From: a virus
DNA: 32,263 nt
Virus record (IMG/VR): IMGVR_UViG_3300030390_001220
Span: 1 to 32,263 of that record
Direction: 5' to 3' (one strand)
Made by a program: the position numbers and the translations under genes. The notes below the pieces were generated by a model. The model saw only the letters and a list, made by a program, of their open reading frames with translations. It was not told the origin of the DNA and ran no database searches. Shown piece after piece: positions 7,965 through 30,882 of this stretch; positions within the stretch are counted from its first letter, which is position 1; the number at the start of each line of letters is the position of its first letter.

Positions 7965-8270
7965 ATGCAGTTAAAGGTTGAAGAAAATTGTCCATTACAT
8001 AATTTTAAAAAATGTAAACAATTTAAATGTGCATGGTTTGTCCAAATGAAAGGCACTAATCCTAATGATGGTAAAGAAATAGATGAATATGCTTGTGCTA
8101 TTGCATGGTTGCCTTTATTACTTGTTGAAAATGCAACACAAGCAAGACAAACTGGAGCGGCAGTAGAATCATTTAGAAATGAAATGGTAAAGTCAAATGA
8201 TTCTAATAGAAATATTTTAGAATTGTCAAAAGTTCTAGAGATTAGAAATAATGGGGAAATAAAACAATGA
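7965..8270 (+). CDS. Conserved small protein with four cysteines
   Basis: 101 residues. 'ENCPLHNFKKCKQFKCAWFV' (Cys 9, 17, 22) plus a fourth Cys in 'DEYACAIAWLPLLL' near residue 44 give a possible metal or Fe-S site. The later stretch 'ATQARQTGAAVESFRNEMVK' is helical. I recall this family ('NCPLxxFKxCKQFxCAWF') as widespread but uncharacterised in phages of proteobacteria. It sits between the tail fibre and the oxygenase and overlaps the latter by 4 bases, so the two are translated together. It could be an iron-binding partner or chaperone for the oxygenase; that is only an inference. Confidence 0.65.
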   Translation: MQLKVEENCPLHNFKKCKQFKCAWFVQMKGTNPNDGKEIDEYACAIAWLPLLLVENATQARQTGAAVESFRNEMVKSNDSNRNILELSKVLEIRNNGEIKQ

Positions 8271-8863
8271 ATGATATGACAAAAGTAAAAAATTTAACTT
8301 TTATTGGTGCTTATGAAAATCTAGCACCTGATGATTATTGTGATAAAATGATAGAGGCTTGGGAGAGAATATATACAAATGCATCATTACGAGATGGTGG
8401 TAATGATGGTTCTATTACTAATGGAGGAGTAGTAAACAGAACAGATTTTGCTCTTTACTTTGATGATATTAGAAATAAGACTCAAGACTTACAACAACAA
8501 ACAAATATGATACTAGACGAAGGTTTAAAAAAATATGGTGCTGAATACCCATCATTAGAAATGAAGCAATATTATAGCGTTAATATTAAAGTGCAAAAAA
8601 CTCCACCAAAAGGTGGATTTCATACTTGGCATAGCGAACACGCTGTTGGAGAAGCTTCTTCTAGAGTTTTGACATGGACAATATATCTTAATGATATTCC
8701 TGATGGGGAAGGAGAAACAGAATTTTTAGAGTATGGTATAAAAGTAAAGCCTAAAAAAGGTACTGTGTCTTTTTTTCCTGCAAGTTGGACACATACTCAT
8801 AGAGGTAATGCAGTTTACACACAAAATAAATACATAGCAACTGGTTGGTATTATTTAGCTTAA
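8267..8863 (+). CDS. 2-oxoglutarate/Fe(II)-dependent oxygenase (prolyl-hydroxylase-like)
   Basis: 198 residues, with the usual late jelly-roll core. 'GFHTWHSEHAVG' supplies the Fe ligands as H122-x-E124 (or H119). 'RVLTWTIYLNDIPDGEGETEFL' is the classic strand of phage and prolyl-4-hydroxylase-like oxygenases. 'GTVSFFPASWTHTHRG' supplies the distal His (H176 or H178), and K188 or R179 could bind 2-oxoglutarate. The first Fe carboxylate is Glu rather than the common Asp, a tolerated variant in this superfamily. Known members hydroxylate protein side chains, nucleobases or small molecules; the substrate here is unknown. Position beside the tail fibre suggests hydroxylation of a virion or host surface protein. 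Confidence 0.75.
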   Translation: MNDMTKVKNLTFIGAYENLAPDDYCDKMIEAWERIYTNASLRDGGNDGSITNGGVVNRTDFALYFDDIRNKTQDLQQQTNMILDEGLKKYGAEYPSLEMKQYYSVNIKVQKTPPKGGFHTWHSEHAVGEASSRVLTWTIYLNDIPDGEGETEFLEYGIKVKPKKGTVSFFPASWTHTHRGNAVYTQNKYIATGWYYLA

Positions 8864-20156: not shown

Positions 20157-20338
20157 TGGAAGACGGACCTTTTAAGCAAATTTTAGAACAAAGCACCGAA
20201 GGTGTTATTAGACAAGAATTAATAACTTACAAAATAGAAGACGGTGTTTTAAAAAGACAAATGGTTTCAAGAGATTTTATTGAATCTGGTGACTATCACG
20301 ATAGCTCATACTCATTACCTTTGGTGACAATGCATTAA
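20156..20338 (+). CDS. Small conserved phage protein
   Basis: 60 residues, acidic N-terminus, with 'LITYKIEDGVLKRQMVSRDF' and 'ESGDYHDSSYSLPLV'. The pattern 'VxRxFxxxGDYxDSxxxxPL' recurs, as I recall, in small phage proteins near lysis genes. It shares one base with the endolysin stop and one with the next ATG, so it is translated in the same chain. No membrane segment and no catalytic motif. Function unknown. Confidence 0.6.
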   Translation: MEDGPFKQILEQSTEGVIRQELITYKIEDGVLKRQMVSRDFIESGDYHDSSYSLPLVTMH

Positions 20339-20979
20339 TGTCTACTTTATTTTGCAATTTACCATCAGTAGATGTATGGGTTAGACGAGAATATTTAAGG
20401 GATCATCAAGATGGACATGGGGAATTTGTAAAAGGTGTCTGGGTTACTGCAAAATCTATTCCTGGTAGAAGTTTTTACTTTGAAACTTACCTTCCTGATT
20501 ATGGTGCTTTGTATGACAAGCTACCTATTTCAGCATTCGTATCAAGCCCCGATACCCCGACCCCAGATATGGATCTTTACAATCTTCAGTTTTGGAATTG
20601 TATGGATTATGGCGTGGTGTCTATTTGTAAACAATTCATAGGATCAATGTCCTTTGAAATACTAACAAGGGATCACGGTACAATGACGGGTACATATATT
20701 TGTACTCTTGATAATTATCACCAAGACCCAGACGTAACTGATTACTCTACCAGCGAAACACCAGCAGAACATAAATCATTTAATCTTTTAGAATTAAAGA
20801 ACGGGCAGTTCTGTTTGTATCCAAACAATAGAATGAGAGTCTATGATAATTCTTTAACACCTCAAGAGCCATTGCAGCCAGACTTCAAAGTGAGTACAGT
20901 AGAGTATCAAGTTGAGAATGGTCAAAAATTTAGACTTGGTGATACAGACGAATACTTTTGGAAAACCAAAGATGAATGA
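20338..20979 (+). CDS. Conserved phage protein with 'LPSVDVWVRREYLRD' motif
   Basis: 213 residues. It begins 'CNLPSVDVWVRREYLRDHQD', then 'GHGEFVKGVWVTAKSIPGRS' and 'FYFETYLPDYGALYDKLPIS'. Later blocks are 'ETPAEHKSFNLLELKNGQFC', 'YPNNRMRVYDNSLTP' and 'KFRLGDTDEYFW'. I recognise these blocks as a family seen in many marine phages, of unknown function. It looks like a soluble mixed alpha/beta protein rich in Asp and aromatic residues; no catalytic triad or metal motif is obvious by eye. It lies just after the endolysin and overlaps the next gene by 4 bases. It could be a regulatory or assembly protein expressed late. Confidence 0.65.
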   Translation: MSTLFCNLPSVDVWVRREYLRDHQDGHGEFVKGVWVTAKSIPGRSFYFETYLPDYGALYDKLPISAFVSSPDTPTPDMDLYNLQFWNCMDYGVVSICKQFIGSMSFEILTRDHGTMTGTYICTLDNYHQDPDVTDYSTSETPAEHKSFNLLELKNGQFCLYPNNRMRVYDNSLTPQEPLQPDFKVSTVEYQVENGQKFRLGDTDEYFWKTKDE

Positions 20980-21490: not shown

Positions 21491-21691
21491 ATGTTATCGA
21501 AGTGGTTTTACAAATTTAAAATAGGAAGAACAATTACAGCTTTACATAGCTTGGATGATGCGACATTAAAAGATATAGGTATTCATAGATCAAATATTAG
21601 ATCACATGCATACGAGATTTTTGAAAATGAAAAGCCTGTAAAAGATCCTATGTCAGAGCTACATGATTTGTATGTAAAATCTACTTACTAA
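21491..21691 (+). CDS. DUF1127 family protein (YjiS-like)
   Basis: 66 residues. 'TITALHSLDDATLKDIGIHR' followed by 'SNIRSHAYE' matches DUF1127, an arginine/leucine-rich small helical family with the core 'LxxLDDxxLxDIGIxRxxI'. The family is abundant in alphaproteobacteria, where some members have been tied to RNA turnover and to phosphate and carbon metabolism. It is preceded by AGGAATAGAA as ribosome site and by a 190-base spacer, so it is likely transcribed separately from the late operon. Its stop overlaps the polymerase stop on the other strand by 4 bases. An acquired host gene used to alter host regulation is a reasonable inference. The C-terminal extension of about 20 residues is acidic and not part of the core. 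Confidence 0.75.
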   Translation: MLSKWFYKFKIGRTITALHSLDDATLKDIGIHRSNIRSHAYEIFENEKPVKDPMSELHDLYVKSTY

Positions 21692-23601
21692 TCTACTTCG
21701 CCCCAATTGTCACATAAAGCAGTATCTACTTCAAAAGGTATCTTTAAGTCTGGAACACAAGTTGTCATGATCTCTACGATCTTGTCGGCTTGTTCTTGAC
21801 TTTCTATGTTGAAGCACAATTCATCATGCACAGTTAAAGTTGGGCATAGTCCTACTTTATAGCATTCGACCATAGCTCTCTTGGTTTGATCGGCACTTGA
21901 TCCTTGAATCAATCTATTCAAGGCTTTGTATGTATAGGCTCTTCTAATTCTACCTTTACTTCCATATTCTTTGATGGCTTGTTCCATAGGTAAAGCTCTA
22001 TTGAATCCATAGGACACGGGTTCATACATATCAAATCTACACTTACGACCTAACCATGTTCTTATAACACCAGTATTCGCAGCACGGTTCATGGCTTTTT
22101 CAGATAAAGATTTTAGAAAAGGAACTTTTTCATTATACGTTTGTAAAAGTTTCTCTGCTTCTTCTATGTCTATGTCCATAACATTAGCAAGTTTGCCTTT
22201 ACCCATTCCATACATAATACCAAGGTTAACTGTCTTAGCTTGTTTTCTAGGTATGTTTGCCATGTCTGCAACCATTTGATGGAAGTCGGCATTACCTTCA
22301 TGATACATTTTTACAACGTCATCAATCTGTGGATGTCGATCTACACCTGTCAAGGTGGCACAGTAATGAACTAACCATCTTGGTTCTTGTGATGCATAAT
22401 CAAAGGAACCCCATTTGTGGCCCTCCTCCGGGATAAACAAACCACGAATTAATTTCTTGATCTCAGGATCTCGTGCTGGTATCTGCTGCAAATTGGGGTT
22501 GCTTGAACTAAATCGTCCTGTTACAGTTCCTCCACCATCAGATCTTAGGGAGTGAAAGTCACAATGTATTCTACCATTATGAGAGTGTTGAAGAATTGTA
22601 TCAACAAATGTCGTATTAGCTTTATTTATTTCTCTAATTTTTATAATCTTTTGTGCAATTGGATGAGTGTTATTAGCAAGAAATTGTTTTGTAAACATGG
22701 GAGCCCCGGACTTTTCTGTGCGAGAATAAGAAAGTCCCACAGCGTCAAAGACCTTTGCTACAGATGTGGCGACCCAAGGTTCAACCGTGACTCCAGTTTC
22801 TTTGACTATCTCTTGTACAAGTGATTCCTCTATCTTAGTTAGCTTTTTCTTTGTATCGTGAGCTTTCTCAACATCAACACGAACTCCTTTTGTTTTCATC
22901 TCAAACAACACGGGAAGTAAATCGATTTCTAATTCAAAAATACTTGAACATTCTTGTTGAGTTATCTTCTTTCTTAAATTTTCCCAAAGTTTTAAAGTTA
23001 TCAAAGCATCTTGCTCGGCATACTTACCTACATATCTAGGAGGTAGTTGCCACATACCAGACTTGGCATCAACACCAAACTCTTCTGCAGCAGACTTTAA
23101 TAATTTTTCGTCTTTAAATTCTCCCAAGTAATCTCTAGCAAGTGAGTTAAGATTATACCATTTTCTATTTTCATCGAGTAAAGGAGCGGCAATCATAGTG
23201 TCTATAATTTTACCTTTAACTTCTATACCCTCGGCTCGAAGCCATCCTAAATCATACAAAGCATTATGAAATACTTTACTTATTTTTTCGTCTGCACAAA
23301 TTTTTGTAAGCCAACTGTATACGGCATTCTTTGGCATGTTACCAACCTTGTGCCCCGTAGGAAAATACCAAGCACTATCTCCAGCACCAACTGCTATGCC
23401 TATTATATATCCATCTTTCCTAGTCCACCCAGGTCCTAGAGTTAAAAGGTTTGAATCTTTTGTTTCTAAGTCAATAGATATAGTTGTATGTTGTGATAGA
23501 TCTGGAAGTGTTTGAGGTGGTTCCCAATCAGAATCCACATTTCCCCAGGAAACATCTTTAATATCTTGATCTAGTAAATGATATTGATCATGTTTTGTCA
23601 T
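21688..23601 (-). CDS. polA: Family A DNA polymerase with 3'-5' exonuclease
   Basis: 637 residues. The exonuclease domain shows D44 and E46 (IDLET), H112-N113...D117 (HNALYD) and Y194...D198 (YAEQD). The polymerase domain has 'GRFSSSNPNLQQIP' (362-375), motif A around D401 (DYASQEPR), motif B R452-x3-K456-x7-Y464 and motif C H592-D593-E594 (VHDEL). All catalytic residues are present. The residue aligned with E. coli Phe762 is L460 ('TVNLGIMYG'). There is no 5' nuclease domain and no DnaJ-like insertion of the kind reported for phage HMO-2011. It replicates the phage genome. The start overlaps the DUF6378-like gene by 14 bases; it is the last gene of the minus-strand block, and no terminator follows. 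Confidence 0.93.
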   Translation of the reverse strand: MTKHDQYHLLDQDIKDVSWGNVDSDWEPPQTLPDLSQHTTISIDLETKDSNLLTLGPGWTRKDGYIIGIAVGAGDSAWYFPTGHKVGNMPKNAVYSWLTKICADEKISKVFHNALYDLGWLRAEGIEVKGKIIDTMIAAPLLDENRKWYNLNSLARDYLGEFKDEKLLKSAAEEFGVDAKSGMWQLPPRYVGKYAEQDALITLKLWENLRKKITQQECSSIFELEIDLLPVLFEMKTKGVRVDVEKAHDTKKKLTKIEESLVQEIVKETGVTVEPWVATSVAKVFDAVGLSYSRTEKSGAPMFTKQFLANNTHPIAQKIIKIREINKANTTFVDTILQHSHNGRIHCDFHSLRSDGGGTVTGRFSSSNPNLQQIPARDPEIKKLIRGLFIPEEGHKWGSFDYASQEPRWLVHYCATLTGVDRHPQIDDVVKMYHEGNADFHQMVADMANIPRKQAKTVNLGIMYGMGKGKLANVMDIDIEEAEKLLQTYNEKVPFLKSLSEKAMNRAANTGVIRTWLGRKCRFDMYEPVSYGFNRALPMEQAIKEYGSKGRIRRAYTYKALNRLIQGSSADQTKRAMVECYKVGLCPTLTVHDELCFNIESQEQADKIVEIMTTCVPDLKIPFEVDTALCDNWGEVD

Positions 23602-23929
23602 TTATAATTTCTCCACCTAAAGCTGCATAGCCTATAACGTCTAACCACGAATCGTCTTTTGAAATGTCTTCAGCGAGACGAGCCACCTTAACACCAATCA
23701 TACAAGCCACCACTTCCTCTGGAGTTATTTTTGCACCATTTAATTTTTTATCTAATAGTATAGTCCATATATCGGCTATACGTTGATGGTTCTTTTTAGC
23801 AGGTCCATACTCCTTGGCTCTCTGTCCATTGATTAGTTTCTCTGCTTCTTTTAAAAAAAATTCTCTATCTTTGTTAGCAAACTGTTTTATTTGTTTCATA
23901 TTATCTCTTAGTTCTTTTGATATTGTCAT
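23588..23929 (-). CDS. DUF6378-like phage protein
   Basis: 113 residues. 'LINGQRAKEYGPAKKNHQRI' then 'ADIWTILL', 'ITPEEVVACMIGVKVARLAE' and 'DSWLDVIGYAALGGEI' fit a family found in many phages (DUF6378 as I recall). These proteins are all-alpha with conserved acidic and basic residues and are sometimes compared with MazG-like nucleotide pyrophosphatases; I cannot confirm an activity. It is placed between the SF1 helicase and the polymerase, overlapping both (4 and 14 bases), so a nucleotide-metabolism or replication-support role is plausible. Confidence 0.7.
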   Translation of the reverse strand: MTISKELRDNMKQIKQFANKDREFFLKEAEKLINGQRAKEYGPAKKNHQRIADIWTILLDKKLNGAKITPEEVVACMIGVKVARLAEDISKDDSWLDVIGYAALGGEIINDKT

Positions 23930-25458: not shown

Positions 25459-25686
25459 TCACTTTTCATCTATACAAAGTCCCGATGCCGTTATTCTTAC
25501 TGCCTTTGGATGAATTCTCCATGCCTCTTCAATCAAATAATCTTCAATCATTTTTTTATCGGCTTTACATTCTTGTTTAGTTTTAAATTCTACTTTTGGT
25601 GCCCACCAATTACATATAGATTTACCACCATCAATTCTAGGTGCTTCAACCAGCACAATGCAGAATGCTACAACCATCTCAATCAA
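25459..25686 (-). CDS. Small exported or membrane-anchored protein with cysteines
   Basis: 75 residues. Residues 1-14 (MIEMVVAFCIVLVE) form a short hydrophobic leader. Then come 'SICNWWAPKVEFKTKQEC' and 'KAVRITASGLCIDEK'. Three cysteines follow the leader region (in 'SICNWW', 'KQEC' and 'GLCID'). It is translationally coupled to the primase gene (4-base overlap) and lies 18 bases before the helicase start. The plan resembles the late protein at 20976. Unknown function; a periplasmic factor acting early in infection, for example against superinfection, is speculative. Confidence 0.55.
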   Translation of the reverse strand: MIEMVVAFCIVLVEAPRIDGGKSICNWWAPKVEFKTKQECKADKKMIEDYLIEEAWRIHPKAVRITASGLCIDEK

Positions 25687-27221
25687 AACGGTGCCTCCCC
25701 CGATTCTATTTTCACGGGTTCAATTTCTATTTCTGATACGAATTCTGGTATACTCCAAACACGAATTGTTTTTGAATTTCCCGTTGATGTTTTAAATCTT
25801 TTTACAATAGAACTATCGCCACTATTTATTTCTTTTAATCTTTCTTGCACTTGTCCTCTTGTATAAACATCAAACTTTTTCTGTCTCATAAACTCCATCA
25901 AAGACTCAAGCCTAAAGTAAGTCTTACTCTCTTCTGCCTCGGTGTATGGTTTACCTAGCATAATCTCTTCAAAGGTTTGTGCTTGTACTCGCCCCGTACA
26001 ATAAGTTTCTAACAAAGATACAAATTGTCCTTTGTATGTAAGCTCCTCGGGTACATTTATCTCATTACAATTTTCCAACAAACCATTGATCTGTTCTTCC
26101 CATAGATTGTCCTTTAACTTTGGGGGCATGAAATTTAATTGCTCCATACATGCTCTTTGAAATAGTCTCGGAGTTTGTAATTCATCTGTTGTTAACTCAA
26201 GTCTTCTCCCACCTATATCCACGAACCATAGTCTTGGCTCCGATAAGATAACAGATAGTCCACTAATTGTAGGCATAGACCCGACACCAATACCATGCTT
26301 CATTGTTCTACAAACACTTTGATTACAATGAGAAGACATAGGTTCTTCTTTACATAAATATTGATATTCTTTTTTTTCTAATGTGTTTTGTATTGCTACA
26401 ACTTCTGATGCCGTAAGTGGTGGTGTAAAATCTTTTGCATTGTGTTCTTCTAATTTAGATTTCCAATCTTGAGGAAAAGCTTTTTGTAAGAAAACACCAA
26501 GGTGGAAGGCAGCTCGGTTTCTCCCCCCTTCGAATATACCCATAGACATTAATGATCGTAAGCACGGAACATAGTTAGGATATAATTCGACTGCCCCACC
26601 AATTGGTATCTTTAAGAAATCTTTTGGTACTATCTTTACCTTTTGTATCTCTTCGATAAATTGTGACAACGATGCCTCGACATAAGATCCTTCTCTTCGG
26701 ATGATCGCATATCTGAAAGTTTGCTCTGAATCAAAATACGGTAAATTGATAAAGTTACCAACATCGCCCCTTTCGACAAGAACCTGTTCTTGTTTCGGGA
26801 ATATTTCGCACCTGCCATGACCAAGTGCAGCAGAAATTTCTGCAGCCTTGTCTCTGAAATCTCCTGCATTCATCCACTCCTTGAAGAAAAAGAATATATG
26901 TGCTCCACCAGATTTACTACGGCACACGATACACGGAACATTAAACTTTTCTAATTTATCTATTAATTCATTATGATCAAGAGGATATTGATCTATATCT
27001 AAAGCACCAAACTTACACTTATTATCTTCGTTAATTGGTATAGCACCGACACCTTGTTTGCCATCGATATGGCTTTGCATCAATTCAAGTGTTAACGGAT
27101 TTCTTACAATATAAGATTTTGCTTTTTGTTTACCAGCCGTTCTTTGGCTTGACACTTCTGTCTGACCATGTGCTGATCTAAAGCCTTCAAAGGCTTTCAT
27201 TAATTCTTCTGCTAAATTCAC
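25683..27221 (-). CDS. Archaeo-eukaryotic-type (AEP) primase, TOTE-like
   Basis: 512 residues from a GTG with GGAG 6 bases upstream. The primase core shows 'FGALDIDQYP' (catalytic D75 and D77), 'SKSGGAHIFFFFKEW' (motif II, H108), 'CEIFPKQEQVLVE' (138-150) and 'GNFINLPYF', the order and spacing of AEP primases of the TOTE conflict-system type found in phages. A three-cysteine block 'YLCKEEPMSSHCNQSVCRTM' near residue 290 could hold zinc or an iron-sulfur cluster. The C-terminal 150 residues have no recognised motif. No helicase fusion is present. It likely makes primers for the family A polymerase, although such enzymes can also have polymerase activity. A terminator lies just upstream, so it may depend on read-through. 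Confidence 0.8.
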   Translation of the reverse strand: MNLAEELMKAFEGFRSAHGQTEVSSQRTAGKQKAKSYIVRNPLTLELMQSHIDGKQGVGAIPINEDNKCKFGALDIDQYPLDHNELIDKLEKFNVPCIVCRSKSGGAHIFFFFKEWMNAGDFRDKAAEISAALGHGRCEIFPKQEQVLVERGDVGNFINLPYFDSEQTFRYAIIRREGSYVEASLSQFIEEIQKVKIVPKDFLKIPIGGAVELYPNYVPCLRSLMSMGIFEGGRNRAAFHLGVFLQKAFPQDWKSKLEEHNAKDFTPPLTASEVVAIQNTLEKKEYQYLCKEEPMSSHCNQSVCRTMKHGIGVGSMPTISGLSVILSEPRLWFVDIGGRRLELTTDELQTPRLFQRACMEQLNFMPPKLKDNLWEEQINGLLENCNEINVPEELTYKGQFVSLLETYCTGRVQAQTFEEIMLGKPYTEAEESKTYFRLESLMEFMRQKKFDVYTRGQVQERLKEINSGDSSIVKRFKTSTGNSKTIRVWSIPEFVSEIEIEPVKIESGEAPF

Positions 27222-27279: not shown

Positions 27280-28071
27280 TTAAAACGGTATTTCTTCGTC
27301 CTTCTGACTTGATGACATTTCATCGGCAGAAGCCGCCGCCATTTTAATTTCCCCTTTTCTAAAACTTTGATACATAGTCCTAGCTTCTAACATCATAGTC
27401 TCTAGTTCTTTTGACATCTCAGTTACACGATCAACCTTATAATTATACCAACTACCTTGATCGTTGCTTTCTGCAATAGTCTTAATAGACCATGCAGTTC
27501 CGTATAGAGGCATAGGCTTACCCGAAGGTAATCTTATGCCATTCTTCATAGTGTTCCATCTACGAGACACTTTTAACTGTGTCTTCTTCATATCAAGAAC
27601 TGCTGGAGAACATAACTTTGTCTCTGGATCCATCACTTGCACGAGATGTTGATGTGTCCTAACTAACTCATTACCAGATGGCAGAATTTCTGCCGCACCT
27701 TCACGAACTGTTAAAGTTATATCCTTATCATCGGGAGATAGTTCTCTAATGAAACCACCACCACTTGATCTAAGGGCGAACTCCAGGAACTTCTTTTCAA
27801 AGAAACAAGGCACAACAATTATTCCGTCTTCTGCTCGGAAGACTTGTTGAGACACCGTATTGAAGATGTCGCCTTGTTCGGCTCCCTTCATATACATACT
27901 GTCTTGCTTGTTTAGTTGTGGCGATAATGCTTGTAGTATCCTTATGAAAGGAATTTGCATATCGTCTGTTGTGAAGTTTTCAAGACCAGCTCCAGCTTCT
28001 TCTTCAAGTAATGAAGATAAATCTGATACTGCTACTTCTGTCTTTGCTTTTTGTGCTACTGCTTGGGACAT
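27280..28071 (-). CDS. Single-stranded-DNA-binding-like protein
   Basis: 263 residues. The last residues 'SSQKDEEIPF' copy the acidic 'D-D/E-x-I-P-F' tail of bacterial SSB proteins, which recruits partner enzymes. The middle (40-200) has blocks 'FIRILQALSPQLNKQ', 'GIIVVPCFFEKKFLEFALRS' and 'YGTAWSIKTIAESNDQGSWY', a pattern I recall in marine phage proteins often labelled SSB. No OB-fold is provable by eye. The strong ribosome site AAAGGAGG lies 6 bases from the ATG, and the start overlaps the previous stop (TAATG), predicting high, coupled expression. It is followed by a strong terminator, consistent with a separately tuned unit. It is likely to coat exposed strands during replication. Confidence 0.7.
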   Translation of the reverse strand: MSQAVAQKAKTEVAVSDLSSLLEEEAGAGLENFTTDDMQIPFIRILQALSPQLNKQDSMYMKGAEQGDIFNTVSQQVFRAEDGIIVVPCFFEKKFLEFALRSSGGGFIRELSPDDKDITLTVREGAAEILPSGNELVRTHQHLVQVMDPETKLCSPAVLDMKKTQLKVSRRWNTMKNGIRLPSGKPMPLYGTAWSIKTIAESNDQGSWYNYKVDRVTEMSKELETMMLEARTMYQSFRKGEIKMAAASADEMSSSQKDEEIPF

Positions 28072-28643
28072 TACTGACCTCCTTTAATTTTTGCACGGTT
28101 ACCAACATAGACTCCAAACATATCGTAATCGACCTCTTGACCGTTTTCGATTCTATTCTTTAGCCATGTTCTTAAAGTCATTGGGTGTATGTGGGTTTTT
28201 TGGGCAGGATTTAGCCCTTGCTTTGATAAATCATCAAGCACGGCCCCCGCTACATTATCTTGACCCATCCCAAAATTGACAACGACTTCGTTCTTAATTA
28301 TATCAGCCTCGCCAATAGAACGCAGAAAGTTAAATGCTTCTGCCTTTCTATCTTCAGGAATTCGTGCTGATACAAATTTATCTACGGAGACTTTGTTGCC
28401 ATCTACTGTCAGACTTTGTACTCCAAGCTCTTCCATTAATGAAGGTATGTCCTCCTCATCAATAGTTCGCTTTTTGTACTGCAAGTCTTTCAAGTATTGC
28501 TCGGCATCTTTGACTTGTTTATTTAAGTCAATCGTTTGCCTTATAAGTGAAGACAGTCTTTTAGTACCATCTTCTCCAACCTTATCAAATGCTTGAGGGT
28601 TGGCAGCTTCTTCTTCAAACAGTGAAAACACATCACTCATCAT
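28071..28643 (-). CDS. Coiled-coil phage protein linked to the SSB-like gene
   Basis: 190 residues. The N-terminal half is a long charged helix with heptad-like spacing ('LIRQTIDLNKQVKDAEQYLK', 'DLQYKKRTIDEEDIPSLMEE'). It is followed by 'LGVQSLTVDGNKVSVDKF', 'SARIPEDRKAEAFNFLRSIG', 'GLNPAQKTHIHPMTLRTWLK' and 'FGVYVGNRAKI'. This pattern is familiar from many phage genomes beside replication genes; a relation to Gam-like nuclease inhibitors has crossed my mind, but I cannot support it. The ribosome site AAGGAG precedes tandem ATGs (28643 and 28640). It is translationally coupled to the SSB-like gene, so it may act with ssDNA, for example as a loader or protector. Confidence 0.65.
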   Translation of the reverse strand: MMSDVFSLFEEEAANPQAFDKVGEDGTKRLSSLIRQTIDLNKQVKDAEQYLKDLQYKKRTIDEEDIPSLMEELGVQSLTVDGNKVSVDKFVSARIPEDRKAEAFNFLRSIGEADIIKNEVVVNFGMGQDNVAGAVLDDLSKQGLNPAQKTHIHPMTLRTWLKNRIENGQEVDYDMFGVYVGNRAKIKGGQ

Positions 28644-28939: not shown

Positions 28940-29458
28940 TTATACGGCTTGTTTTCTTGGTACTTTATATAGATTAGCTATAAATTTACGATTTTCCATA
29001 GACTCCAAATACAGTCTCGTCTCTTCTATACTTTTATCTAAAGCAAATCGCCACGATCTTGCCGTAATGTCTGGATCATTAATGAATGCATCCATGTGTA
29101 TTTTTTTAGTTACACCACGACACATACCCACGGGAAGAAATTGTATTTTTCTTTCGGGCAAACAAACCAAGGCTAATATGTCACAGTCTTCTTTTGTGTA
29201 TGGTCTTTTTGGACTATTACCTTTACTAGTCGTAAAACTATATTGCTTTCCACCTTTCTTGTATTTCTCATTTGTATGAGTCGATGTCTTCACTTCTATT
29301 CTTTGGGCAACGGGTACATCAAATCCTTTTATGGCAACTACATCTGTCCCATCTTGTTTAACCAGGTCACATTGAACTCCTAGCATTGTTAACTCGAAAG
29401 CTGCAAGAAGTTCGCCAGCCGTTCCCGTTAGTTTCTCCGATCTTATACCTTTAACCAT
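28940..29458 (-). CDS. PD-(D/E)XK-like endonuclease
   Basis: 172 residues. 'TGTAGELLAAFELTMLGVQC' (helix with E near 16), 'LVKQDGTDVVAIKG' (D near 39) and 'QRIEVKTST' (E-x-K near 54-56) reproduce the active-site order of the PD-(D/E)XK superfamily, as in resolvase-like or restriction-like phage nucleases. Nothing shows the DNA structure cut. It could resolve branched replication intermediates or degrade host DNA. The start overlaps the SNF2 helicase gene by 16 bases, so they probably work together. The C-terminal 60 residues look helical and basic, possibly for DNA binding. Confidence 0.75.
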   Translation of the reverse strand: MVKGIRSEKLTGTAGELLAAFELTMLGVQCDLVKQDGTDVVAIKGFDVPVAQRIEVKTSTHTNEKYKKGGKQYSFTTSKGNSPKRPYTKEDCDILALVCLPERKIQFLPVGMCRGVTKKIHMDAFINDPDITARSWRFALDKSIEETRLYLESMENRKFIANLYKVPRKQAV

Positions 29459-30882
29459 TCTAATACTTCCTCTCCTAATGTTTTATTTGCTATTTTATCC
29501 TTTTGTAACAAGGACTTAACTATGTGTACATCAACTGTGTTGGGGCACACTAAATCAACATATAGCACGGGTTTATGTTGACCTATTCTATGACATCTGT
29601 CTTCTGATTGTTTTCTTGACTCCAGGTTAAAGTCATTGGAGTAGTAAATTACATTCGATGCAGCCGTTAAAGTTATACCTCGACCACCCGTTTGTGCATT
29701 ACTGACAAAGAACCTCGTCTCTGGATTTGTTTGAAAGTTATGTATTGCCGAGTCTCTATCTTCCTGGGAAGTGTCCCCATAATAAGTGACCACGGAACCC
29801 GATCCATAGGCTTTTGCTAATTCATTTTTAATCTTCTTTATATCGTAACGAAATCTTGACCATATAATTACTTTGCCATCCATTTCTTCGATGACTTCCA
29901 TCATGACTTTTATTCTATTGTTAGCTAGTTCTATGGTTTCTCCATCATCATTCACAAGATATCCACAGAGCAATTGTTGTAGTCTAAGAAGTCTCGTCAT
30001 CACTTCGGGTGCCGATACCATATTACCATCTTCTAAATAGATAACGGATGTCTTCTTCATACTTATGTATTGATCTATCTGTGTGGATGTTAAATCTACT
30101 TGCCTTGTTGTATAAATCTTATCGGGTAAATCTAAGGCTTCTTTCTTGGTTGTCCTATGGGCAAAAAATTTTAATTTCTGTGTTAACTCTTCTAAATTTT
30201 TATAGCCAACAACTTGATTGAAACTCATACTGCCCATTCTTTGTTGTTTGATAATGGCAAACCTTCCTTGGAAAGACCAATAGCTATCATATCCAAGAAG
30301 AGTTTTACTTAGAAAAGCACATTGTGAATATAAATCTAGGGGCGATTGTGTTATCGGAGAACCCGTTAGTATTCTTTTATACTTGGCAGTCTCTCCAAAC
30401 TTCATGATTGCTTTTGTACGTTTCGCTTTTACATTTTTGATTGTTGTTGACTCATCAATCGCTAACATAAATTCACTTCTGTGAGTAAACGATTCAAGGA
30501 ACACGGGTGCTTTTTTTGTAACGAATGATTCTACATTCATTAGAAGTATTCTAAACTTATCTCTTTTGGTTGCACCTTCTGCTAATTTTTTCTTCTCGTT
30601 CCTTGTAGGATTAGCTTTCCATAAATATATATCGGCATCTATATCATCGGGTAAATGGATTGGTATCTCATTGTTTTTCCAATTCATATACACACCCTTG
30701 GGGGCAACAACTATTGCAGTATCAATTTCTTTCTGCTGCCAAAGCCAATATATATTATCGATTAAAACTTTTGATTTGCCACAACCCATCTCCATAAAGT
30801 ATGCGAAATTTTTCTTGTTGTAGCTTTTTAACAAAGCATCCTCTTGATGAGCATATGGCTTTGTCTTGTACTTGAATTGCAT
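29443..30882 (-). CDS. SNF2-type DEAD/DEAH-box helicase
   Basis: 479 residues. Motif I 'EMGCGKSK' (31-38), motif II 'AIDESTT' (D143-E144), motif III 'LTGSP' (172-176), a second RecA-like domain with 'VIIWSRFRYDIKKI' (338-351) and 'SNAQTGGRGITLTAASNVIYY' (motif V region, 394-414), and motif VI 'QSEDRCHRIGQ' (425-435). This set is specific for SNF2-family SF2 ATPases, which translocate on double-stranded DNA. In short-tailed marine phages this gene is a usual part of the replication block. It has a ribosome site AAGGGGA before the ATG. It ends inside the nuclease gene, which suggests functional coupling in fork or branch processing. Confidence 0.92.
   Translation of the reverse strand: MQFKYKTKPYAHQEDALLKSYNKKNFAYFMEMGCGKSKVLIDNIYWLWQQKEIDTAIVVAPKGVYMNWKNNEIPIHLPDDIDADIYLWKANPTRNEKKKLAEGATKRDKFRILLMNVESFVTKKAPVFLESFTHRSEFMLAIDESTTIKNVKAKRTKAIMKFGETAKYKRILTGSPITQSPLDLYSQCAFLSKTLLGYDSYWSFQGRFAIIKQQRMGSMSFNQVVGYKNLEELTQKLKFFAHRTTKKEALDLPDKIYTTRQVDLTSTQIDQYISMKKTSVIYLEDGNMVSAPEVMTRLLRLQQLLCGYLVNDDGETIELANNRIKVMMEVIEEMDGKVIIWSRFRYDIKKIKNELAKAYGSGSVVTYYGDTSQEDRDSAIHNFQTNPETRFFVSNAQTGGRGITLTAASNVIYYSNDFNLESRKQSEDRCHRIGQHKPVLYVDLVCPNTVDVHIVKSLLQKDKIANKTLGEEVLEWLKV

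Follow-up and report, generated by a model that had tools for sequence, protein, structure and literature searches.

A phage replication module with an archaeo-eukaryotic primase, a UvrD-like helicase and matching C-terminal tips on the primase and a probable single-stranded DNA-binding protein

Which enzymes open and prime the replication fork of a phage that carries a primase of the archaeo-eukaryotic primase (AEP) superfamily together with a family A DNA polymerase is the question raised by the IMG/VR virus record IMGVR_UViG_3300030390_001220. A sequence-only reading of this record had described such a pair of enzymes and had claimed that no DnaB-like helicase is present in the window, by which we mean the whole stretch of 32,263 bases that was analysed and that makes up the complete record. 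This claim is true and, taken alone, weak: the window is probably a fragment, since an open frame is cut at its left end and a PHROG scan of 28 of its proteins turned up no terminase, portal or capsid protein. Two relatives measure 60–62 kb. A search of the window with a terminase model gave no match either, which tells little because the same model missed the annotated terminase of MW202510. Since the window looks like a fragment, the helicase question was put to relatives; a search for a DnaB-type helicase or a DnaG-type primase elsewhere in the genome is not applicable to the window record itself, and the relatives have to stand in for it.

According to the PHROG scan, the first 21 kb or so carry virion-type genes on the plus strand. 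From the right end inward, a compact run on the minus strand, in which several genes overlap at their ends, encodes an SNF2-family ATPase, a PD-(D/E)XK-like protein, gp33, gp34, the AEP primase, a 75-aa ORF, a UvrD-like helicase, a DUF6378 protein and the family A polymerase (Table 1). The window polymerase scores 335 bits against the model of the aminoadenine polymerase DpoZ (cut-off 500) and is a relative of DpoZ; a Z-genome context was not recognised. Further to the left, an auxiliary gene for a 2OG-Fe(II) oxygenase-like protein is found at 8267–8863 (phrog_61, 3.4e-42), and a 213-aa protein encoded at 20338–20979 strongly matches phrog_3704 (9.7e-110), the label of which, 'ferredoxin', looks doubtful given the length of the protein.

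Table 1 Features of the replication module in the window, with the evidence for each
Feature	Position	Strand	Evidence
AEP primase, 512 aa, PHROG 21866	25683..27221	-	ORF, Pfam, PHROG, alignment, model
AEP catalytic domain, residues 1-205, D75/D77/S102/H108/E139 invariant	26607..27221	-	alignment, profile search, structure comparison
Four-Cys helical domain, residues 214-310, PriCT-1-like, possible PriL-type Fe-S	26292..26582	-	alignment, PriCT-1 in relatives
Winged-helix-like part, residues 396-499	25725..26036	-	model, structure comparison (modest)
Primase C-terminal tip GEAPF	25686..25700	-	tip reading, shuffle test
gp34-like protein (PF23977), 263 aa, probable OB-fold SSB, low-confidence (disordered) tail	27280..28071	-	Pfam, model
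gp34 C-terminal tip EEIPF, matches primase tip	27283..27297	-	tip reading, shuffle test
gp33-like protein (DUF7307), module neighbour	28071..28643	-	Pfam
UvrD/PcrA/Rep-like SF1 helicase, 510 aa	23926..25458	-	Pfam, model searches
Family A DNA polymerase with 3'-5' exonuclease domain	21688..23601	-	Pfam, model searches
SNF2-family ATPase	29443..30882	-	Pfam
PD-(D/E)XK-nuclease-like protein	28940..29458	-	Pfam match below cut-off
75-aa ORF between primase and helicase	25459..25686	-	no PHROG match
DUF6378 protein	23588..23929	-	Pfam

The frame that had been taken for a primase gene is real and uninterrupted, with the addition that it lies on the minus strand; a plus-strand reading of 25683–27221 was rejected because of its many stops. 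A chance frame is not at issue, since at least 600 IMG/VR stretches and 25 GenBank phage records encode relatives. Members of the AEP superfamily are marked by an hhDhD motif, a motif of the SxH type and a third acidic residue. The primase contains DID (D75, D77) and SGGAH (S104–H108), and in an alignment of 42 relatives, with identities down to 22%, the residues D75, D77, S102, H108, E139 (of the motif EIFPKQ), N159 and R170 are invariant. The Pfam family AEP-TOTE (PF22548) matches residues 33–172 (3e-18; 66.6 bits against a gathering cut-off of 27) and is matched by all 42 relatives at E values up to 10, and PHROG 21866, 'primase', matches residues 3–491 (3e-79). A profile of the primase alignment (positions 2–195) finds the CRISPR-associated Prim-Pol (CAPP) of Marinitoga sp. 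1137 (PDB 7nqd, 7nqe, 7nqf, 7p9j) with an E value of 5e-16; the positions of DID, H and EIFPKQ align, and S102 faces a threonine in CAPP. The structural model of the primase (mean pLDDT 86.8) has a pTM of only 0.49, so that the relative placing of its domains is uncertain, and its nearest solved structure is again CAPP (7nqf; VIA), with Z 21.0 and an rmsd of 3.1 Å over 190 residues; GenBank loci were left out of the structure alignments. The invariant motif residues and the fold shared with CAPP place the protein in the AEP superfamily, and the core proposed in the sequence-only reading is borne out by Pfam and PHROG as well. The epithet 'TOTE-like' holds for the name of the Pfam family, but among solved structures CAPP comes closest, and the gene sits in an operon for phage replication. 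CAPP, which is CRISPR-associated by its title, has the same catalytic domain, but the match covers residues 1–210 of the primase only and its partner genes are different.

What follows the catalytic domain had been read as a Cys3 block and a long C-terminal part without a recognised motif, and both statements need correction. Four cysteines (C220, C290, C299 and C304) are invariant in the 42 aligned relatives, the number also found in PriL, and PriCT-1 is matched by 20 of these relatives (E values up to 10, the lowest being 7.5e-7) and not by the window protein. Because PriCT-1 has been argued to be related to the Fe-S domain of PriL (Kazlauskas 2018), and because all four cysteines are conserved, an iron–sulfur cluster in this domain is plausible. 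PriL is absent among the matches listed for the primase model, in a comparison that barely covers residues 210–390. For the stretch of about residues 315–390 no domain was assigned. The fold prediction that had been suggested for the C-terminal part yields a winged-helix-like fold for residues 396–499 or so, with modest scores (best match the relaxosome accessory protein of pCW3, 5vfx; Z 7.1, rmsd 3.5, 88 residues).

For model searches in the relatives, 35 records were used: 15 from GenBank, the window and 19 from IMG/VR. Acinetobacter phages account for ten of the 25 GenBank records, and two of these ten were included; of the 15 GenBank records used, eight are labelled circular, among them MW202803, and many of those from IMG/VR may be fragmentary. 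None of the 35 records matched Toprim_4, Toprim_2 or Pox_D5, and at E 0.001 DnaB_C was found in one, MW202803 (below the curated cut-off), the own record of which calls the gene DnaB-like. In control genomes the DnaB model was detected in 14 of 14 (ten over the cut-off), the Toprim models likewise in 14 of 14 and Pox_D5 in three. The models for UvrD, SNF2 and PolA each matched 22 of 23 records, and these were the same 22, namely all that have a full-length AEP, which supports the pairing of this primase with a family A polymerase. The one remaining record is MW202803 (L096), which has an AEP frame of 338 aa and lacks UvrD, SNF2 and PolA. The combination of a short AEP and a DnaB-like helicase in this phage forms a natural contrast to the full-length module. 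The absence of a DnaB-type enzyme noticed in the window holds in relatives with more complete genomes; with the models used, a search for DnaB or DnaG in the genomes of the relatives found none in the 34 records with a full-length enzyme, the single find being in the record with the short AEP. Because UvrD, SNF2 and PolA co-occur so strictly and the DnaB_C, Toprim and Pox_D5 searches were silent in these records, the full-length AEP travels with these three proteins and without a ring helicase that the models used could recognise. The arrangement is also conserved locally: of the 321 loci in which the downstream sequence extends for 2.5 kb or more, UvrD was found in 315. By a strict spacing rule the count is 294, and the 27 misses consist of 21 loci in which UvrD overlaps or lies further off and six without any UvrD in the stretch.

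On the other side of the primase, gp34 is the immediate upstream neighbour in 267 of 287 loci with enough flanking sequence, whereas the group of SH-Ab 15497 has it at a greater distance. The gp34 model (pLDDT 83.3, pTM 0.75) has low pLDDT from about residue 241, and the protein ends in a disordered tail with the acidic-hydrophobic tip EEIPF. The best structural matches are a phiC31 integrase–RDF entry (Z 7.2), of which we take the matching chain I to be the RDF, RB69 gp32 (6.1), T4 gp32 (6.0) and a BRCA2 entry (5.9), all in the range below Z 8 for which the tool warns of common arrangements, so that the likeness to gp32 and the RDF (Z 6.0–7.2) may be a chance arrangement. They are followed by gp32 with Dda (4.9), PRD1 P12 (4.6) and then mostly SSB, RPA, PriB and MCM entries. 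The sequence of gp34 matched neither gp32 nor the phiC31 RDF in a PDB search, which gave two armadillo-type chains at E 0.35–0.5; a Foldseek search of the model against the PDB gave no match at E <0.001, and one against a viral library gave 28, with two proteins named single-stranded DNA-binding protein among the 50 best rows and most of the others unnamed. Since the list of structural matches is uniform, though each score alone is uninformative, gp34 is probably an OB-fold protein that binds single-stranded DNA (SSB), as judged from its model. The position of the phiC31 RDF at the top of the list hints at a possible relationship between it and the SSBs of replication. Next to gp34, gp33 (DUF7307) is often found, with blastp matches in 277 of 417 loci, and three distant phages were checked as well; gp33 is a candidate for the missing docking partner or for a loader.

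In many of these phages the C-terminal tips of the primase and gp34 match. In 340 loci that have both proteins, PF is paired with PF in 183 and IV with IV in 50, and smaller classes combine SEF with GEF, LEPDL with EPEL, and PPPFV with DIPFA, the last with one extra residue in both proteins. In the window, PF ends only the primase and gp34 among 45 mechanically chosen genes; elsewhere, it ends seven of 1083 other genes in 38 records, one of these being a third, 62-aa gene of DSL-LC04. Since the loci are redundant, representatives chosen by shared four-residue words were tested instead of all loci. Primases shorter than 480 aa, incomplete or containing X had been dropped before clustering, which kept 394, and clusters without a complete gp34 were left out, reducing 75 clusters to 62 and 31 to 22. 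Scored with BLOSUM62 over the last three residues, own pairs reached 6.09 in the set of 22 clusters against 1.50 (sd 1.08) for shuffled pairs, and 9.61 against 6.05 (sd 0.47) in the set of 62, values that none of 5000 shuffles attained in either case, in a test that leaves the relatedness of clusters in and in which clusters are not fully independent. Control pairings of the tips with gp33, UvrD, PolA and SNF2 gave negative scores that were mostly at chance. PolA was an exception when two residues were used (54 and 95 of 5000 shuffles for primase–PolA, 147 of 5000 for gp34–PolA with 16 clusters), its scores still being negative.

On a tree from which the last 25 residues had been left out, the two tips change jointly in the IV lineage, in the SH-Ab-like group (except L264) and in L083, L287 and L142; the tip of gp34 changes alone in L165, L173, L121 and L163, and the tips do not change together in the 023Pt group, in L273/L279, in Nanhaivirus and in HTVC023P. 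Mismatches are found in Nanhaivirus, with primases ending in GEA or GQD, in HTVC023P (primase FRT), in the 023Pt group (NF, HF or DF against PY), in the L273 group (LI against PY) and in L264 (EF against PF). In four further cases the primase retains PF and the residue preceding the last F of gp34 is V or I. The primase of R5C, a phage of Dinoroseobacter, has no such tip. An apparent PF/VV pair in L070 was rejected as a real tip, the gp34 frame being shortened. Because the changes are joint in some lineages and not in others, the match and co-variation of the two tips are strong and not universal.

A partner for such tips could be sought in the host. The tips might copy the tail of the host SSB and bind the partners of that protein, and their match would then be convergence on one host signal; many tips are indeed of the form [DE]xPF, like the SSB tails that were found. 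However, SSB genes were matched in nine of 12 SAR11 genomes searched, and eight of the nine products end in DD[DE]IPF and one in DDPPF, whereas the SAR11 phage HTVC027P, whose own host strain HTCC1062 has an SSB outside this SAR11 set, carries the tips KENIV and KQDIV. Furthermore, in SH-Ab 15497 the SSB-like ending DDDLPF is on a third, separate protein, with the primase ending in SEF and gp34 in GEF. These two observations make copying of the host tail unlikely in our view, and the comparison of endings favours a phage-encoded protein as the docking partner. The third protein of SH-Ab 15497 is a 99-aa product annotated as ssDNA-binding (L084, 31377–31676), which has no Pfam match and ends in DLDDDLPF, like an SSB tail.

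The reading to which we give about an even chance is that the AEP protein is the priming enzyme of a SNF2–gp33–gp34–AEP–UvrD–PolA module that works with no phage ring helicase of the DnaB or gp4 type, and in which two tips share one partner in the manner of T7. In such a module the AEP domain would synthesise the primers, the four-Cys PriCT-1/PriL-like domain, with its putative Fe-S cluster, may aid initiation, and the winged helix may bind duplex DNA, for example at an origin. Single strands would be coated by gp34, and the fork would be opened by the UvrD-like helicase. Primase and gp34 would take turns, by means of the same C-terminal plug, on one phage-encoded partner, most simply the family A polymerase and otherwise the UvrD helicase. 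That all this amounts to a separate type of phage replisome, composed of an AEP with a PriL-like Fe-S domain, a gp32-like SSB, a UvrD-type helicase moving 3'–5' on the leading-strand template, and a shared, co-evolving plug, is a proposition that we put forward tentatively, as possible rather than probable.

UvrD enzymes are usually repair helicases, and these phages could recruit the DnaB of the host instead. The host enzyme, brought to the phage origin, would unwind the fork, the AEP would only prime, and UvrD and SNF2 would serve recombination or repair; use of the ring helicase of the host would remove the need for a phage one, and one study (PMC7824862) assigns the UvrD-type and Snf2 helicases of jumbo phages to recombination. 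This remains a doubtful explanation, as no loader of the DnaC/IstB type, to which this argument is confined, exceeded the cut-off in the 23 records (sub-threshold matches in three), and as UvrD accompanies every full-length AEP and is missing from the one DnaB-bearing record, a pattern expected if UvrD and DnaB substitute for each other. A model for AAA_25 gave no match over the cut-off in the same 23 records and sub-threshold matches in four. Melting of DNA by the PriCT-1 and winged-helix module of the primase itself we hold to be decidedly unlikely. A like order of AEP, PriCT-1-like domain and HTH occurs in the PrimHYQ and RepE/RepS primases, which belong to elements without a helicase and for which such melting is predicted, and ColE2 Rep is reported to melt DNA (Kazlauskas 2018). 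Here, unlike in those helicase-less elements, all 22 records have two helicase-like ATPases, and the module may open the origin only. A role in defence or conflict, of the TOTE or CAPP kind, is suggested by the Pfam name and the nearest structure. It was disfavoured as highly improbable because in the six relatives first inspected the primase sits with polymerase and helicase genes, and because the score for the CAPP equivalog (NF040561) is 44 bits, far under the cut-off of 200.

The preferred reading, that of a fork opened by UvrD with a partner shared by primase and gp34, may be compared with known systems. In phage T7 a Toprim primase is fused to a ring helicase, and the tails of gp4 and gp2.5 use the same region of the polymerase. 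The T7 replisome (gp4, gp5, gp2.5) has a family A polymerase too, with the tails of its primase and SSB as docking parts, but in the present module an AEP primase and an SF1 helicase are used, and the Toprim primase and ring helicase that define the T7 type were not detected in any record with a full-length AEP. The tails of gp4 are acidic and bind to gp5 at basic patches (PMC12593628), and T7 polymerase cannot carry out strand displacement without the C-terminal phenylalanine of gp2.5 (title cited in PMC9917605). In PolpTN2, PrimHYQ and RepE/RepS, too, a PriCT-1 or PriL-like domain comes after the AEP domain, together with a winged helix or HTH (Kazlauskas 2018); the likeness lies in domain order, since the PrimHYQ and RepE/RepS elements lack the helicase gene that is present here.

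The primase family is not new, as it is already annotated in phages and PHROGs. Homologues in the same kind of module occur in phages of PHROG 21866 such as SH-Ab 15497, HTVC023P, HTVC027P and DSL-LC04, where the annotation goes no further than primase, putative primase, DNA primase small subunit or hypothetical protein, and in the accessible part of the literature searched we found no mechanism study on them. Nor did we meet in that literature with the all-or-none module, the PriCT-1-like domain with its four cysteines, a reading of gp34 as an SSB or, above all, the matched tips; that a tip shared by primase and SSB was not found described there is no proof of its being unpublished. The chief interest lies in the tip match and the all-or-none module. 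For a family that so far has only the name Pam3_Gp34, an SSB role is proposed on the basis of the model. The way in which helicase-less, primase-bearing elements unwind their DNA is called an open question in Kazlauskas (2018), where about 2% of primase-bearing dsDNA viruses are said to lack a helicase.

The module is common in IMG/VR viruses, and it seems that in many viruses of aquatic bacteria DNA is copied by means of an archaeal-style primase and a repair-type helicase, in place of the usual ring helicase. Since it is also present in cultured phages, with Acinetobacter, Salmonella, Klebsiella, Dinoroseobacter and Pelagibacter as hosts, it can be tested by experiment; one of these phages, SH-Ab 15497, is a Z-genome phage according to PMC8599892. 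The tip pairs provide a sequence-based clue to the replisome's hub. If the proposed replisome is real, a coupling in the style of T7 would have been rebuilt from unrelated parts, and with a 3'–5' helicase and an AEP primase the geometry of the fork would be nearer to the eukaryotic than to the bacterial one.
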